A DNA stretch of 38,332 nucleotides from Actinomycetota bacterium (lineage in GTDB: Bacteria; Actinomycetota; Actinomycetes; Actinomycetales; Microbacteriaceae): NCBI GenBank assembly GCA_018268455.1, contig JAFDWM010000017.1:1-38332 (forward strand), written 5' to 3'. Numbering within the stretch: position 1 is the stretch's first letter; the number at the start of each line of letters is the position of its first letter. The translations under genes and the position numbers were made by a program. Of the stretch, positions 30,484 to 36,769 are shown in pieces. The notes under the pieces are model-generated. The model saw only the letters and a program-made list of their open reading frames with translations, was not told the DNA's origin and ran no database searches.

Positions 30484-31433
30484 GCATCATCGACACCCTT
30501 CCCGCGCCGACCGGCGCCGACGCCCCGCACGCGACCGGAGACGCCCTCACCAGCCTCGACCTGCTCGAGGCCGAGGCGATCCACATCATCCGCGAGGTCG
30601 TCGCCGAGTTCGAGCGCCCCGTGCTGCTGTTCTCCGGCGGCAAGGACTCCGTGCTGGTGCTGCATCTCGCCGCGCGCGCGTTCGCGCCGGGCCGGGTCCC
30701 CTTCCCCGTGCTGCACGTCGACACCGGGCACAACTTCGACGAGGTGATCCGCTTCCGCGACCAGACCGTCGAACGGCTCGGGCTGACGCTCGAGGTCGCC
30801 CGGGTGCAGGACTACATCGACGACGGCCGCCTCGCCGAGCGCCCCGACGGCACCCGCAACGTGCTGCAGACCCAGCCGCTGCTCGACGCGATCGCCGCGG
30901 GCAAGCACGACGCCGTGTTCGGCGGCGCCCGCCGGGACGAGGACAAGGCGCGCGCCAAGGAGCGCATCATCTCGCTGCGCGACGAGTTCGGGCAGTGGGA
31001 TCCGCGCAACCAGCGCCCGGAGCTCTGGAGCCTGTACAACGGCCGGCACACGCCTGGCAAGCACGTGCGCGCGTTCCCGATCTCGAACTGGACCGAGCTC
31101 GACGTGTGGCGCTACATCGCCCGCGAGCAGATCGCCCTGCCCCCGCTCTACCTCGCGCACGAGCGCGAGGTGTTCCGCCGCGACGGCATGTGGTGGGCGG
31201 TGAACGAGCACGCGCAGCCCCGCGAGGGCGAGCAGGTCGAACGCCGCACCGTGCGCTACCGCACGGTGGGCGACGCCAGCTGCACCGGCGCCGTCGAATC
31301 CGACGCCGCCACGGTCGACCAGGTCGTCGCCGAGGTCGCCCGCTCCACCCTCACCGAACGCGGCGCCACCCGCGCCGATGACCGGATCAGCGAGGCCGCC
31401 ATGGAGGACCGCAAGAAGAACGGATACTTCTGA
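30480..31433 (+). CDS. cysD: Sulfate adenylyltransferase subunit 2
   Basis: Catalytic subunit of ATP sulfurylase: forms APS from sulfate and ATP, with the GTPase CysN. The 317 residues have the PP-loop SGGKDS at 52-57, HVDTGHNFDEVI, FGGARRDEDKARAKERI and the C-terminal signature AMEDRKKNGYF. The ATG at 30480 overlaps the cysH stop (ATGA). It ends one base into the cysN start (TGATG). No unusual features were noted. Confidence 0.98.
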   Translation: MSIIDTLPAPTGADAPHATGDALTSLDLLEAEAIHIIREVVAEFERPVLLFSGGKDSVLVLHLAARAFAPGRVPFPVLHVDTGHNFDEVIRFRDQTVERLGLTLEVARVQDYIDDGRLAERPDGTRNVLQTQPLLDAIAAGKHDAVFGGARRDEDKARAKERIISLRDEFGQWDPRNQRPELWSLYNGRHTPGKHVRAFPISNWTELDVWRYIAREQIALPPLYLAHEREVFRRDGMWWAVNEHAQPREGEQVERRTVRYRTVGDASCTGAVESDAATVDQVVAEVARSTLTERGATRADDRISEAAMEDRKKNGYF

Positions 31434-32854
31434 TGAGCACGATCGAGACGATCACAGCCACCCGCGAAACTGCACCCGGGTATCGAGACAGCAGCTCCAG
31501 CGCGCAGTCTCGAGACGCAGATGCAGTCTCGCGGTCAGAACAGGGGGCCCCGGGGCTGCTGCGTGACACGACGCTGTTCCGGTTCGCCACGGCCGGATCC
31601 GTCGACGACGGCAAGTCCACCCTGGTCGGACGGCTGCTGCACGACGCGAAGGCGATCCTCGCCGACCAGCTCGAGCAGGTGCAGCGCACCTCCGCCGACC
31701 GCGGCTTCGCGCACGGCGAGTTCGACTTCGCGCTGCTCACCGACGGCCTGCGCGCCGAGCGCGAGCAGGGCATCACGATCGACGTCGCGTACCGCTACTT
31801 CGCCACCGACGCGCGCAGCTTCATCCTCGCCGACTGCCCCGGACACGTGCAGTACACGCGCAACATGGTGACCGGATCCGCGACCGCCGACGCCGTGGTC
31901 GTGCTCATCGACGCGCGCAAGGGCGTGGTCGAGCAGACCCGCCGGCACCTCGCCGTGGTCTCGCTGCTACGGGTGCCGCACGTCATCGTCGCCGTGAACA
32001 AGATCGACCTCACCGGCTTCGACGAGCAGACCTACCGCGCCGTCGAGGCGCAGGCGAACCAGGTCGCCGCCGAGCTGGGCCTCCTCGACGCGCACGTGAT
32101 CCCGGTGTCGGCACTCGAGGGCGACAACATCGTGGATCCGTCCTCGCGCACCCCCTGGTACGACGGACCCACGCTGCGCGAGCTGCTCGAGACGCTGCCG
32201 GCGCGCGAGACCGAGGAAGGCGCGGCGTTCCGCCTGCCGGTGCAGACCGTGATCCGCCCGCAGGGCGGCCTGTCCACCCTCATCGACCCGGCCGAGACCG
32301 ACGCACTGCGCGACTACCGCGGCTTCGCCGGGCGGGTGTCCAGCGGATCCGTCGCCGTCGGCGACCGCGTACAGGTGTTCCCCGGCGGTCACGAGACCAC
32401 CGTGACCGGGATCCGGGTCGCCGGGCGCGAAACCGGCGCCGCGCACACCGCGCAGTCGATCGCCGTGACCCTCGCCGACGAGGTCGACGCGGCCCGCGGC
32501 GCACTCATCGCCGCCGCCGGCACCGTGCCGGCCGGCCACCAGGAGGCCGAGCTCGAGCTCTTCCAGCTCGACGTGCGGCCCATCACCACCGGCGCGCGCG
32601 TGCTCGCCAAGCACGGCACCACCACGGTGCAGGCGATCGTGACCGACGTGCGCGCCCGCCGCGACCTCGACACCCTCGCCCTCGAGGAGGCGGCCGAGCT
32701 GGCCGTGAACGAGATCGGCCGGGTGCGGATCCGCTTCGCATCCGCCCTGCCCCTGGAGCCGTACGCCGACGACCGGGAGGGCGGCGCACTGCTGCTGATC
32801 CACCCCGTCGACGGAGCGACCCTCGCCGCGGCGACCGTCGTCGCGGCCGAATAG
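31433..32854 (+). CDS. cysN: Sulfate adenylyltransferase subunit 1 (GTPase), with element-encoded N-terminal insert
   Basis: EF-Tu-like GTPase coupling GTP hydrolysis to APS formation by CysD. The 473 residues contain the P-loop GSVDDGKST at 55-63, switch region GITIDVAYRYF, DCPGHVQYTRNM, the base-specificity motif VNKID, and the two beta-barrel domains. There is no C-terminal CysC (APS kinase) fusion. The P-loop usually lies about 25-35 residues from the N-terminus; here residues 10-34 are encoded by a 73-bp palindromic element (31462-31534) that keeps the frame and adds a Ser/Arg-rich, probably disordered stretch. The ATG overlaps the cysD stop by one base. Confidence 0.97.
   Translation: MSTIETITATRETAPGYRDSSSSAQSRDADAVSRSEQGAPGLLRDTTLFRFATAGSVDDGKSTLVGRLLHDAKAILADQLEQVQRTSADRGFAHGEFDFALLTDGLRAEREQGITIDVAYRYFATDARSFILADCPGHVQYTRNMVTGSATADAVVVLIDARKGVVEQTRRHLAVVSLLRVPHVIVAVNKIDLTGFDEQTYRAVEAQANQVAAELGLLDAHVIPVSALEGDNIVDPSSRTPWYDGPTLRELLETLPARETEEGAAFRLPVQTVIRPQGGLSTLIDPAETDALRDYRGFAGRVSSGSVAVGDRVQVFPGGHETTVTGIRVAGRETGAAHTAQSIAVTLADEVDAARGALIAAAGTVPAGHQEAELELFQLDVRPITTGARVLAKHGTTTVQAIVTDVRARRDLDTLALEEAAELAVNEIGRVRIRFASALPLEPYADDREGGALLLIHPVDGATLAAATVVAAE
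31462..31534. repeat. 73-bp nested palindromic element inside cysN
   Basis: Outer arms CCGCGAAACTGCA and TGCAGTCTCGCGG pair with one mismatch; inner arms CGAGAC (31484-31489) and GTCTCG (31507-31512) pair perfectly around a 17-nt centre. Length and spacing of all parts equal those of the copy at 36553-36625 in cobA. Confidence 0.9.
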
Positions 32855-32906
32855 CCCCACCCAATCCCGCCCGGAAGAGCCCCGAAGAACGCCTAAGGAG
32901 GCGACA

Positions 32907-33992
32907 GTGAATCGCAAGACCCGCATCAGCACGGCCATCACCGCTCTCGGACTCGCGATGGCGATGCTCGCCGGCTGCTCCTCCGCACAGGCCGCGACCG
33001 AGGCCGGATCCGCCCCCGCCTCGGAGTCGAAGCTCGACACCCTCAAGCTCGGCTACTTCGCCACGGTCACGCATGCGCCGGCTCTGGTCGGCATCGACAA
33101 GGGGCTGATCCAGAAGCAGCTCGGCGGCACGAAGCTGCAGACCGAGGTGTTCGGCGCCGGTCCCGCCGCGGTCGAGGCGCTCTCGGCCGGCGCGATCGAC
33201 GCCGCGTACATCGGTCCGAACCCGGCGATCAACACGTTCATCCAGTCCGGCGGCGCCTCGGTGCGCGTGATCGCGGGCGCCACGAGCGGGGGTGCGTCGC
33301 TCGTCGTGCGCGACGGCATCACCCGCGCGTCCGACCTCAAGGGCAAGACGCTCGCCTCGCCGCAGCTGGGCAACACGCAGGACGTGGCGCTGCGCACCTG
33401 GCTGGGCTCGAAGGGGCTGAAGACCACGGTGCAGGGAAGCGGCGATGTGCACATCACCCCGACCGACAACGCACTCACCCTGAGCCTGTTCAAGGACGGC
33501 AAGCTCGACGGCGCATGGCTTCCCGAGCCGTGGGCGTCGCGCCTCGTGCTCGAGGCCGGCGCGCACGTGCTCGTCGACGAGCGCGACCTGTGGCCCGACG
33601 GGGCCTTCCCGACCACGGTGCTGCTGGTGCGCACCGACTTCGCCCTGGCGCATCCGACGGCCGTGCGCGAGCTCGTCGCCGGGCACCTCGACGCGCTCGA
33701 CTGGATCGCGAAGAACCCTGCCGAGCTTCCCGGGGTCGTCAACGGCGCGCTCAAGACGGCGACCGGCAAGGCGCTCCCCGACGACGTGCTCGCGGCGTCC
33801 CTGGCCAACGTGTCGTTCTCGGCGGATCCGAATGCGAAGGCGTTCGCGAAGCTGGTGCACAACGGCGTGACCGCCGGCACCCAGAAGAAGGGCTCGATCG
33901 CTGGGCTGTTCGATCTCGCCGTCGTCGACACCGAGCTGAGCGCGCGCGGCGAGAAGGCCGTGGACGACGGCGGGCTGGGGCAGAAGCGATGA
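32907..33992 (+). CDS. ABC transporter substrate-binding lipoprotein (SsuA/TauA/NitT class)
   Basis: A 361-residue lipoprotein; signal peptide with lipobox LAGC and C24. The mature part has the SsuA-like pattern LGYFATVTHAPALVGIDKGLI, GPAAVEALSAGAIDAAYIGPNPAINTFIQSGG (spanning residues ~80-115), LKGKTLASPQLGNTQDVALR and KLDGAWLPEPWASRLV. In a sulfate assimilation operon it probably delivers a sulfur anion or sulfonate to the permease; sulfate, thiosulfate and alkanesulfonates cannot be told apart here. The GTG start has a perfect AAGGAGG at good distance, the only strong SD in this operon, after a 52-nt gap. The stop overlaps the ATPase start (ATGA). Confidence 0.93.
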   Translation: MNRKTRISTAITALGLAMAMLAGCSSAQAATEAGSAPASESKLDTLKLGYFATVTHAPALVGIDKGLIQKQLGGTKLQTEVFGAGPAAVEALSAGAIDAAYIGPNPAINTFIQSGGASVRVIAGATSGGASLVVRDGITRASDLKGKTLASPQLGNTQDVALRTWLGSKGLKTTVQGSGDVHITPTDNALTLSLFKDGKLDGAWLPEPWASRLVLEAGAHVLVDERDLWPDGAFPTTVLLVRTDFALAHPTAVRELVAGHLDALDWIAKNPAELPGVVNGALKTATGKALPDDVLAASLANVSFSADPNAKAFAKLVHNGVTAGTQKKGSIAGLFDLAVVDTELSARGEKAVDDGGLGQKR

Positions 33993-34789
33993 CCACCCCG
34001 CTCGCACCGAGCTTCGACTCGATCGCTCCGGTCGTCCAGGTCGCGGATCCGACGGATCCGGCCGTGCGCCTGTCGCATGTCACCAAGCGGTACGGATCCG
34101 GCCCGATCGTGCTCGACGACGTCTCGCTGGACATCGCCCCGGGCGAGTTCGTCTGCCTGCTCGGCGCGAGCGGATGCGGCAAGTCGACCCTGCTCAACTT
34201 CATCGCCGGGCTCGAGCCCGTCTCGGCCGGCGAGATCTCGACACCCGCCGAGGGCGCGGCCGTGATGTTCCAGGACGCGGCGCTCATGCCGTGGCTGAGC
34301 GCACGCCGCAACGTCGAGCTGGCGCTGCGCCTGCGCGGGGTGCCGCGCACCGAACGCCGCGCCGAGGCGCTGCGCCTGCTCGGCATCGTGAACCTCGCCG
34401 ATGCGGCGGAGAAGCGCCCGCACGAGCTGTCCGGCGGCATGCGCCAGCGTGTGGCGCTGGCTCGAGCGCTCGCACAGGACCGGCCGGTGCTGCTCATGGA
34501 CGAGCCGTTCGCCGCACTCGACGCGATCACCCGCGACCTGCTGCACGAGGTGCTGGAGAACGTGTGGCGCGAGACCGGCCGCACGATCGTGTTCGTCACC
34601 CACAACGTGCGCGAGGCCGCCCGCCTCGGTCAGCGCGTGGTGCTGCTCGGCAGCCGCCCCGGCCGCATCTCCCGCGAATGGCGCGTGGCGCGCACCCGCG
34701 GCCGCCGCATCGAGTCGCCCGAGGTCTCGGCGCTCGCCGCCGAGATCACCGTCGAGCTGCGCAAGGAGATCCGCCGCAATGCCGACTGA
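33989..34789 (+). CDS. ABC transporter ATP-binding protein (SsuB/TauB class)
   Basis: Energises import through the adjacent permease. The 266 residues contain Walker A GASGCGKST (59-67), Q-loop in AVMFQDAALMPWLS, signature LSGGMRQR, Walker B VLLMDEPFAALD and the H-loop VFVTHNVREA. The C-terminal tail matches the nitrate/sulfonate/taurine class. A ~25-residue N-terminal extension precedes the first strand. The ATG at 33989 overlaps the stop of the binding protein gene, and the permease gene begins 11 nt before this stop codon. Confidence 0.95.
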   Translation: MTTPLAPSFDSIAPVVQVADPTDPAVRLSHVTKRYGSGPIVLDDVSLDIAPGEFVCLLGASGCGKSTLLNFIAGLEPVSAGEISTPAEGAAVMFQDAALMPWLSARRNVELALRLRGVPRTERRAEALRLLGIVNLADAAEKRPHELSGGMRQRVALARALAQDRPVLLMDEPFAALDAITRDLLHEVLENVWRETGRTIVFVTHNVREAARLGQRVVLLGSRPGRISREWRVARTRGRRIESPEVSALAAEITVELRKEIRRNAD

Positions 34790-35768
34790 GACGCATTCCT
34801 CCCCTTCTTCCCGGCCGTTGAGCGACGACGAGAGACGCGAGATCGAGACGGAACCCGGCGATCTCGCGGGCGACGACGTTCCGTCTCGCTCGACGACCGC
34901 TGCGACCGACGACGAGCTCTCCCGCCTGGAAGCAGGCCTCGACCGCTTGCAGACCGCGGAGACAGGATCCGAGTCCCGCACCCGCCGGCGTCTCGGCGCG
35001 GTCCTGCCTCCGGTGATCCTGCTCGTGCTGCTCATCGCGGCCTGGCAGCTGTACGTGGTGATCGCGCGCCCACGGCCCGACAAGGCGCCGGGCCCGCTCG
35101 ACGTGCTCGGCGCGTTCGGCGACGCGTGGGCGTCGGGCCGGCTGCAGGAGTCGGTGGCCACCAGCCTCGAGCGCGGCCTGATCGGCTTCGTGATCGCGAT
35201 CGCCATCGGCACCCCGATCGGCCTGCTCCTGGCGGAGGGGAAGCTGCTGCGCCGCGCCGCGGGCCCCCTCATCTCCGGGCTCATGGTGCTGCCGAGCGTG
35301 GCCTGGGTGCCCGCGGCGATCATCTGGTTCGGGCTGAGCGACGCGACCGCGTACTTCGTGATCCTGATGGGCGCGGTCCCGTCGATCATCAACGGGCTGC
35401 TCTCAGGCATCGACCAGGTGCCGCCGCAGCTGCGCCGCGTCGGCACCGTACTGGGCGCGAGCCGCTGGCAGTCCGCGACGTCGATCGTGCTGCCCGCCGC
35501 TCTGCCCGGCTATCTCGGCGGGATCAAGCAGGGCTGGGCGTTCTCCTGGCGCTCGCTCATGGCCGCCGAGATCATCACGACCGGCGGCACCCTCGGGTTC
35601 GGCCTCGGCACGATGCTCGACCAGGCCCGGCAGCTCGCCGACCTCCCCGGCGTGCTCGCCACCATCCTGCTGATCCTCGCGATCGGCATCCTCATCGAGC
35701 TGGCGCTGTTCGCCCCGCTCGAGCGCGCCGTGCTCCGCCGGCGTGGACTGCTGCTCGGAGGTGCATGA
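34779..35768 (+). CDS. ABC transporter permease (SsuC/TauC class) with element-encoded N-terminal tail
   Basis: A 329-residue permease, longer than the ~250-280 usual for the family. After about 75 non-membrane residues there are some six helices: PPVILLVLLIAAWQLYVVIA, GLIGFVIAIAIGTPIGLLLA, LISGLMVLPSVAWVPAAIIWFGL, AYFVILMGAVPSIINGLL, and two at the C-terminus; the EAA loop is present in RVGTVLGASRWQSATSIVLPAALPGYLGGIKQGWAFSW split over residues ~205-245. Residues 12-41 of the tail are encoded by an 88-bp nested palindrome (34812-34899). The start at 34779 overlaps the ATPase gene by 11 nt; a start further downstream would remove the palindrome but no good SD is seen there. Confidence 0.93.
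   Translation: MPTETHSSPSSRPLSDDERREIETEPGDLAGDDVPSRSTTAATDDELSRLEAGLDRLQTAETGSESRTRRRLGAVLPPVILLVLLIAAWQLYVVIARPRPDKAPGPLDVLGAFGDAWASGRLQESVATSLERGLIGFVIAIAIGTPIGLLLAEGKLLRRAAGPLISGLMVLPSVAWVPAAIIWFGLSDATAYFVILMGAVPSIINGLLSGIDQVPPQLRRVGTVLGASRWQSATSIVLPAALPGYLGGIKQGWAFSWRSLMAAEIITTGGTLGFGLGTMLDQARQLADLPGVLATILLILAIGILIELALFAPLERAVLRRRGLLLGGA
34812..34899. repeat. 88-bp nested palindrome inside the permease gene
   Basis: Outer arms CGGCCGTTGAGCG (34812-34824) and CGCTCGACGACCG (34887-34899) pair with two mismatches. Inside are two overlapping, mutually exclusive perfect 10-bp pairs: CGCGAGATCG (34836) with CGATCTCGCG (34859-34868), and GAGACGGAAC (34845) with GTTCCGTCTC (34878-34887). Confidence 0.82.
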
Positions 35769-36769
35769 TGACTTCAGGATCCGCCACCCCAGGAACCGCC
35801 GCCCTCGGCACCGTCACCCTCGTCGGCGCGGGACCAGGCGACGCCGGACTGCTGACGCTACGCGGCCTGCGTGCCCTGGAGAGCGCCGACGTGATCGTCG
35901 CCGACCGGCTCGGCGCCCGCGCGGTGCTCGACCAGCTCGCCGCCGAGGGCACAGCCCTCACCGCCGAGGTGATCGACGTCGGCAAGCTCCCCGGACACCA
36001 CCCGGTGCCGCAGGACGAGATCAACGCACTGCTGGTGCGCCACGCGCGTGCCGGTCGCGCCGTCGTGCGTCTCAAGGGCGGGGATCCGTTCGTGCTCGGC
36101 CGCGGCCGCGAGGAGGCGCTGTACTGCGAGGCCGAGGGCGTCGCCGTGCGGGTCGTCCCCGGCGTGACGAGCGCGATCTCGGTGCCCGCTGTCGCCGGGA
36201 TCCCGCTCACGCATCGCGGTGTCGCGACCGCGTTCACGGTCGCCAGCGCGCACGACCCGATCGAGCAGCTGCCAGGCGGATCCGATCACACCGTGGTTCT
36301 GCTCATGGGCATCGGCACGCTCGCACACACCGCCGAGATCCTGGCCCGCGGCTCCCGCGGCGTCGATTGCCCGGTCGCGATCATCGAGGACGGCTACGGA
36401 TCCGGCGAGCGCGTCACCGTCGGCACGCTCGGCACGATCGCCGCCCTCGCCGCCGAACGCCGGGTACGCAACCCCGCCGTGGTCGTGGTCGGCGACGTCG
36501 TGCGACTGAGCCCGCACGCCGCGCACCCTGCCCACGCCACGCACCGTCCTGACCGCGAGACTCCAACTGCGCAACGAGACAGCGTGCGCCACGCGCAGTC
36601 TCGGAACTCAGATGGAGTCTCGCGGAACCGGATCCCCGCTCGCGCCGCCGACCGGCTCCCCGCTCGCGCCGCCGACCGGCTCGCCGCGGCCCTCGACGCG
36701 GGCCTCGCCGTCGACGCCGGCCTCCCGTACTCCCCCATCCGATCCGACCGAAAGACCCTGCAGCCGTGA
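35765..36769 (+). CDS. cobA: Uroporphyrinogen-III C-methyltransferase with unusual C-terminal extension
   Basis: SAM-dependent double methylation of uroporphyrinogen III to precorrin-2, the branch to siroheme. The first ~255 residues are a complete SUMT domain: [70 protein letters not shown] and a late LLMGIGTL. The remaining ~75 residues (to 334) are not SUMT-like: residues 263-287 come from a 73-bp palindromic element, and ~290-305 from a 24-bp tandem duplication (PARAADRL twice). The ATG at 35765 overlaps the permease stop; a second ATG follows at 35768. It supplies siroheme for the Sir protein of the same operon. Confidence 0.93.
36553..36625. repeat. 73-bp nested palindromic element inside cobA
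   Basis: Outer arms CCGCGAGACTCCA and TGGAGTCTCGCGG are perfect complements; inner CGAGAC / GTCTCG identical to the cysN copy; the centre adds GCGTG-CGC-CACGC. Relative to cysN, arm position 11 has changed from G to C and its partner from C to G, a compensatory double change. Confidence 0.92.
36633..36680 (+). repeat. 24-bp perfect tandem duplication in the cobA tail
   Basis: Two identical 24-bp units (36633-36656, 36657-36680) directly behind the 73-bp element, encoding the octapeptide PARAADRL twice in frame. Confidence 0.9.

Follow-up and report, generated by a model that had tools for sequence, protein, structure and literature searches.

We describe a 79-bp palindromic element that occurs twice in contig JAFDWM010000017.1 of an Actinomycetota bacterium of the family Microbacteriaceae (assembly GCA_018268455.1); the whole of this 38,332-nucleotide stretch is called the window below. 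The element is built of four like boxes at fixed spacing, is dispersed through the genome, and has counterparts in related genomes in which the boxes are spelled differently. With confidence that falls just short of even, we propose that it is a chromosomal binding site for a putative sequence-specific multi-subunit DNA-binding complex, the specificity of which would change by lineage.

The initial annotation of the window had reported two nested palindromes of 73 bp, at 31462-31534 in cysN and 36553-36625 in cobA. Both sequences are present at these coordinates with the nested layout described, but alignment of 38 copies extended the unit to 79 bp (31459-31537 and 36550-36628) and revealed that the outer and inner arms carry an identical box, each arm holding two copies of CGAGAC in the same orientation at a spacing of 19 bp. 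The consensus unit reads TGACCGCGAGACTnCAnCTnnGnnnCGAGACTGC, then 11 free bases, then the mirror image, so that the arms are inverted around a free 11-nt centre; the consensus ends, TGACCGCGAG and CTCGCGGTCA, pair with one another. Copy 1 (31459-31537) was placed by alignment, covariance model and in-frame peptide inside the 5' end of cysN, at residues about 9-36. Its box 1 reads CGAAAC instead of the consensus CGAGAC (31465-31470, plus strand, alignment columns 7-12) and is followed by box 2, CGAGAC (31484-31489, plus, columns 26-31), the free centre (31493-31503, columns 35-45), and boxes 3 and 4, both GTCTCG on the minus strand (31507-31512, columns 49-54, and 31526-31531, columns 68-73). 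Copy 2 (36550-36628), placed by alignment and covariance model, lies in the 3' tail of cobA past the methyltransferase domain; the alignment puts its CGAGAC boxes 1 and 2 at 36556-36561 and 36575-36580 (plus), the centre at 36584-36594, and its GTCTCG boxes 3 and 4 at 36598-36603 and 36617-36622 (minus). A half-element pattern allowing up to 3 mismatches matched 3 times in the window, against 0.01 expected. All 38 first-collected copies had one length when centre lengths up to 3 on either side of the first guess were tested.

A covariance model was built from the 38 aligned copies and found 40 copies, each of 79 bp, in the host genome (G000 in our numbering, in which L denotes loci; 3.6 Mb in 310 contigs, 80 rows for 40 places). 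BLAST of the same genome with one copy returned 68 rows, both strands being matched owing to the palindrome. The view of a dispersed element with further genomic copies is thus borne out. In a search of 118 genomes, the host included, run with stricter filters and at most 40 candidates scored per genome, 36 had matches at an E value of 0.001 or better, all within one of 31 genera. Carriers named by pattern search are Microbacterium azadirachtae ARN176, Microbacterium sp. 13-71-7, and the metagenome-assembled genomes Pcu381_bin15 and SZAS-4. These relatives suggest that the host, too, is a Microbacterium.

Conservation between species was assessed with 154 copies of at least 30 bits from G126 (M. 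azadirachtae), G127, G128, G064 and G000, comprising all 40 of G000 and part of each other genome and giving 167 orthologous pairs. Of the sampled G126 copies, 26 of 29 had a partner in G128; 20 of the 40 G000 copies had none in the samples of the four relatives. In 32 orthologous sets (2-4 members, four closer species), the box columns differed in 0-3% of comparisons, with 15% at column 31. Variation was greater at columns 17, 20-21, 59-60, 63 and 66 (18-36%) and in the centre (18-54%); for the 12 bases outside the unit it was 33-61%, ungapped. The boxes are under strong constraint, the centre is variable, and many gene-boundary sites are kept across species. A hypermutable centre was considered, aligned flanks differing by 15% and the centre by 18-54%, and is not claimed because ungapped comparison shows equal divergence in the adjoining bases outside. 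The length is fixed: 169 of 170 scored arm pairs had the standard offset, and only a compound copy in G015 departed from it. For 19 more arms no partner scored above the cut-off; one stands at a locus end, and the others appeared by eye to be units of 79 bp in which the second arm is weaker. By our gap scoring, 188 of 214 flanks of orthologous copies had an insertion or deletion within 30 nt. In a few copies at orthologous sites the interior of the element seems inverted between species (L239 versus L238, and L300 versus L251).

Sites are also shared by distant species. One of them, the glyA-folD gap, is occupied in G000, G064, G015, G056 and G018. The gap in an E1-beta/E2 dehydrogenase operon holds a copy in G017, G054 and G015, as judged by protein comparison, and in G027 and G056, as judged by eye from the protein starts; the xylA-xylB site is common to G017 and G054. 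The gap beside gcvP carries copies in G015 and G003, and G064 has one neighbour in common there. In G015 three copies stand within 1.4 kb beside gcvP (L337:7701-9106), and the matching gap holds the best copy of G003.

The glyA-folD gap was then read across the genus, 78 of 79 genomes being matched. Among the 47 genomes listed with glyA and folD as two separate pieces, 24 had a gap of at least 60 bp, which was read where it was among the loci listed. Of the 30 loci listed, 22 had a readable gap; as to the 8 remaining loci, three were covered by the geometry test described below, glyA and folD abut in G001, G002, G021 and G066, and G035 was left out of the reading. The same layout recurred there in other words: CGAGTGCAC in G029, G122 and G040, CGAGAACGC in G059, CGAACCCGG in G011, TGAGACACC in G036 and G123, CGATAAACG/CGAGACACG in G020, and CGAGACACC in G048. 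The layout was not clear in G050, G118 and G019. A palindrome scan that left the period free found 20 palindromes in 264,690 bases outside the main carriers (including G032 and G048, which do have model matches; the scan had no shuffled control). A matching 9-mer repeat was present in both arms of 8 of these, and its period was 19 in all 8. When the geometry itself was searched for, 316,146 bases gave 19 matches, 12 of them CGAGACTGC-like (G000, G064, G017, G056, G015, G004 and G018) and 7 in other words. The span from box 1 to box 4, determined at a set period of 19 and, where registers tied, in the one starting with CG, came to 67 bp in 13 of 24 loci that between them carry several words (among the loci, G032 is not a glyA-folD site and G125 scored low) and 78 bp in three.

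One of the other words is itself dispersed. The CGAGTGCAC word gave matches in 15 of 79 genomes, with up to 31 rows in one, and its reversed control gave 0. Of 32 hand-picked CGAGTGCAC/CGAGTGCACG arm pairs, 31 stood at one offset. The span of the CGAGTGCACG dialect, 78 bp, is 11 bp longer, which is about one helical turn. Three boxes in one arm, still at a period of 19 bp, were seen in this dialect at L395, L410 and L414. Two dialects occur together in G004 and in G059; G064 has two weak matches. Chance palindromes, or ordinary terminators that look alike, might be suspected in a high-GC genome, where many inverted repeats are to be expected in general (they were not counted). Such an origin is scarcely credible and is refuted by the copy number: 40 copies have one length and one consensus, a reversed control pattern found 0 matches in three genomes, and the geometry scan found 0 matches in 1.58 Mb of first-order Markov-shuffled sequence versus its 19 in 0.32 Mb of real sequence.

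The genomic context of the element was examined with genes predicted by a small Markov-model script, so that gene ends are approximate. Of 107 copies from six genomes, 95 are intergenic by this prediction; the remaining 12 overlap a predicted gene, 8 of them lying inside an open reading frame (ORF) and 4 only touching its end or start. In loci chosen because copies are present, 36 of the 82 convergent gene pairs contain a copy, as do 50 of the 304 codirectional and 10 of the 80 divergent ones. Median gap lengths are 169-177 bp where a copy is present (292 for divergent pairs), versus 83-107 bp (148) where there is none, gaps below 10 bp being left out; element-bearing gaps are thus longer, the element adding its own length. 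Over about 30 bp the left flank is C-rich and the right flank G-rich. Along coordinate 1 onwards, the copies listed for G054 fall 24/12/10/6 by quarter (Kolmogorov-Smirnov p 0.0015) and those for G035 9/6/3/3 (p 0.021). A distribution centred on the origin was nevertheless rejected, the trend fading once clusters were merged (p 0.24 in G054, 0.15 in G035) and being absent among the matches listed for G015.

Both copies in the window belong to the coding minority. The host of copy 1 is cysN, the sulfate adenylyltransferase large subunit (31433-32854, plus; TIGR02034, 487 bits, cut-off 336), and that of copy 2 is cobA, uroporphyrinogen-III C-methyltransferase (35765-36769, plus; TIGR01469, 241 bits, cut-off 185). 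Both ORFs are open through the element, with the copies in frame. Matches of CysN set in at residue 44-50, and the best ones of CobA stop at residue 248-253. The element therefore falls outside the conserved domains, as the initial annotation had held in placing the copies in variable protein parts with the frame kept. Its description of an in-frame coding element holds as far as translation goes, but insertion into coding sequence is the habit of a minority, the 12 copies that overlap a gene. In-ORF copies of five genes share the frame xRETxxxxRDSxxxxQSRxxxxVSRS: cysN, cobA, an ABC-transporter ATPase in which the copy lies between the two domains, a molybdopterin oxidoreductase (in G000 and G064) and hutI (in G017). 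A C-terminal copy at L190 of G017 is read in another frame. At the cysD-cysN junction the element is present in 2 of 30 loci listed (G000 and G064) and absent in the other 28, some of which hold other palindromes there; the extension is therefore not a general feature of the orthologues. One other palindrome type lies in frame at the CysN N-terminus in L108, L109, L114 and L115 (G052, G014, G049 and G121, respectively); it reads GTTTCGTCTCGC... with GGTCGTTGAGCGAG... in L108 and GGTCGTCGAGCGAG... in L114, and only its left part is present in L109 and L115. This linker thus accepts several repeat families. Directly past the element, the cobA tail carries an in-frame 24-bp tandem duplication (36636-36683) that encodes PARAADRL twice; the CobA tail of G064 is shorter and lacks the duplication.

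A putative binding protein, its co-evolution with the sites and its function are what we infer from the anatomy, copy number, context, conservation and dialects set out above. Subunits of the complex would occupy the four boxes on double-stranded DNA, in which case rotational phase matters and insertions or deletions are not tolerated. When the specificity of the complex shifted in a lineage, its sites would be rewritten along with it. The location of sites at the ends of genes and within operon gaps may reflect that promoters would be unharmed there, and the few in protein tails and linkers may be read as harmless polar peptide. Chromosome organisation, gene insulation and a part at transcript ends are candidate functions of the bound complex. 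A wider formulation, which we would sooner doubt than assert, is that the tens of sites of one architecture kept by many species of the genus, often at the same positions and with the box word rewritten genome-wide in different lineages, represent a nucleoprotein system with a recognition code that turns over rapidly within the genus.

Several observations weigh against a binding site for such a complex, and they are gathered in this and the next two paragraphs. A fixed spacing is equally expected of a copied unit. The geometry has its exceptions, with spans of 68 bp in two loci (G059 and G047) and 59 bp in one (G068), and 5 of the 24 loci gave a poor score or another register. Among the 47 genomes listed with glyA and folD as two pieces, the genes abut or overlap in 22, which leaves no element there, and G050 has copies elsewhere and a glyA-folD gap without boxes. 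No binding protein emerged: the search for a recurring neighbour gene at copies or clusters, with families named from sequence starts, turned up nothing beyond families that are large and common, namely ABC ATPases, LacI regulators, response regulators and short-chain dehydrogenases.

Pairing between the arms bears on a second explanation, an RNA hairpin that lies at 3' ends and in the gaps of operons, acts in termination, mRNA stabilisation or as protein-bound RNA, and is kept at the transcript level. The folds predicted for the two 73-bp sequences are strong (-39.1 kcal/mol at a z of -5.3 and -48.2 kcal/mol at a z of -7.2; 0 of 200 shuffles as stable), and placement between convergent and codirectional genes is one that transcribed hairpins show likewise (PMC3733652). 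The C-rich, hairpin, G-rich order is also the same in both directions. Arm agreement exceeded that of random partners in G000 (334 versus 290 matches, 0 of 2000 shuffles) and in G050 (144 versus 118, 7 of 2000), was weakly above random in G054 (134 of 2000), was not raised in G017, and was lower in the G064 group, which was partly chosen by a one-arm pattern. At column 25 the arms of G000 agree in 53% versus 26%. Subfamily symmetry explains part of this excess, maybe not all, and the excess could mean pairing. At column 14, in 114 copies of four species, agreement was slightly above random (P about 0.02). On the other side, several variable columns are often unpaired: over 38 copies, with counts resting on helix 1 of the model structure, this holds for columns 14/66 in 16, 21/59 in 21 and 24/56 in 19. 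The free positions are mostly A or T at column 17 and GG or CC at columns 20-21, without preferential pairing across arms; in G126, G127, G128 and G064, columns 20-21 and 59-60 are nearly always GG or CC. Columns 20-21 are in fact preferentially unlike between the arms, being identical in 35 of 114 copies versus 55.8 expected and, with one copy per set, in 13 of 46 versus 21.2; independent half-sites do not predict this preference either. The compensatory swap that had been taken as a sign of preserved pairing is therefore weak evidence. The loop has a fixed length though its sequence is free, and in one dialect the span is changed by roughly one turn of DNA. The 20 positions downstream are G-rich with 6-16% T each; no T run follows the hairpin, as judged from base composition (no terminator scan was run). 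Rfam gave no match to the element in the window or in four loci. Its matches elsewhere in those loci were ordinary msiK and ZMP/ZTP RNAs, among them a ZMP/ZTP riboswitch upstream of glyA and an msiK RNA at L052:1586-1668 and L157:5589-5648. We consider an RNA hairpin improbable. The fixed length with a free centre, the mostly unpaired free positions, the dialect that is one turn longer, and the shared positions fit a phased complex on double-stranded DNA better than a hairpin.

The third explanation is a non-autonomous mobile palindrome, resembling a miniature inverted-repeat transposable element (MITE), a repetitive extragenic palindrome (REP) or a Rickettsia palindromic element (RPE). Its putative enzyme would prefer gene ends or existing hairpins, new types would invade old sites, and the boxes would be enzyme-binding ends. 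Two young-looking subfamilies have a common centre by eye, type B of G000 and the GGGGTWACCCC copies of G054, which means that copying has occurred. Type B stands in G000 where relatives have type A, in L039 versus L158 and in L156 versus L064 and L067, the latter placed within about 65 bp and without base-to-base alignment. The symmetric subfamilies and the type B copies over type A demonstrate that copying or rewriting takes place as well. The longer gaps where the element is present and the in-frame copies in linkers suit mobility as well, as does the partnerless half of the G000 copies, whose sites may be gained or lost. The initial annotation had proposed to look for target duplications and a partner gene. 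No target duplication was detected over 120 copies at shifts of -6 to +12 and lengths of 2-12 (209 tests, best z 2.3), and the ends of the 12 copies listed from this test showed no exact repeat of at least 4. No REP-associated tyrosine transposase (RAYT; PF01797), the Y1 partner, was found in the carriers searched, namely G000, G064, G050, G017, G054, G015 and G035 (G126-G128 lay outside this search). The same profile was positive in 5 of 14 control genomes and in 1 of 79 genus genomes, G041, where G041:C15:20980-21342 (L215) is the only Y1 transposase; G041 is not among the 36 genomes with model matches. Among the matches listed for G000, G064 and G050, with arms at no more than 1 mismatch, no longer element with the same ends was noticed (two G050 arms were outside this check). 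Phage and plasmid records and viral contigs gave no match to one 96-bp stretch with one copy or to one arm pattern, both of the CGAGAC dialect. Orthologous boxes are kept while the centre drifts, unlike in dead inserts. We regard mobility as unlikely, though an explanation to be reckoned with. An attC-like recombination site, considered from the layout alone, was rejected, the boxes within an arm being direct and not inverted repeats.

If one fast-changing protein family recognises the sites, the Microbacterium dialect series of fixed geometry would make a recognition code readable, and a role in chromosome or transcript organisation would become testable. A nucleoprotein system, if that reading is true, would offer a naturally occurring series in which protein dialects are matched to site dialects. 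If the element is mobile instead, it would be a palindrome family without RAYT, with boxes long kept and translatable in frame.

No description of the element was found in the open literature, a scope that excludes most subscription papers. We compared it with known systems. SlmA, Noc and MatP sites and the dialects of DNA-uptake sequences are short single words. The element resembles them in having tens of chromosomal sites or species dialects and no mobility; unlike SlmA, Noc or MatP sites, it is an array of four boxes in fixed phase that spans 67 bp, or 79 bp when its ends are counted. With MITEs it shares its small size, terminal inverted repeats, lack of a gene and copied subfamilies, but it differs from them in the missing target duplication, a parent transposon that was not found, the many positions common to species and the fixed length. 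REPs and bacterial interspersed mosaic elements of the GTAG and CGTC families, as described by Di Nocera (2013, PMC3733652), are palindromes between convergent or codirectional genes, some in ORFs and often in tens of copies. Dispersal, placement, occasional ORF copies and copy number are alike here. Unlike REPs as portrayed there, the element lacks a RAYT in the carriers searched, has four like boxes at a 19-bp period and a fixed total length, shows no unpaired GTAG or CGTC tag in its consensus (as read from the consensus, with no separate tag search), and has no solitary arm that could be established. RPEs, which the initial annotation had named as precedent, are about 150 bp long with nearly half in ORFs (PMC10969869). 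The precedent is apt for the in-frame copies in unrelated metabolic genes and their one preferred frame, but the present element is 79 bp long, mostly intergenic with coding copies in the minority, and diversified into sequence dialects.

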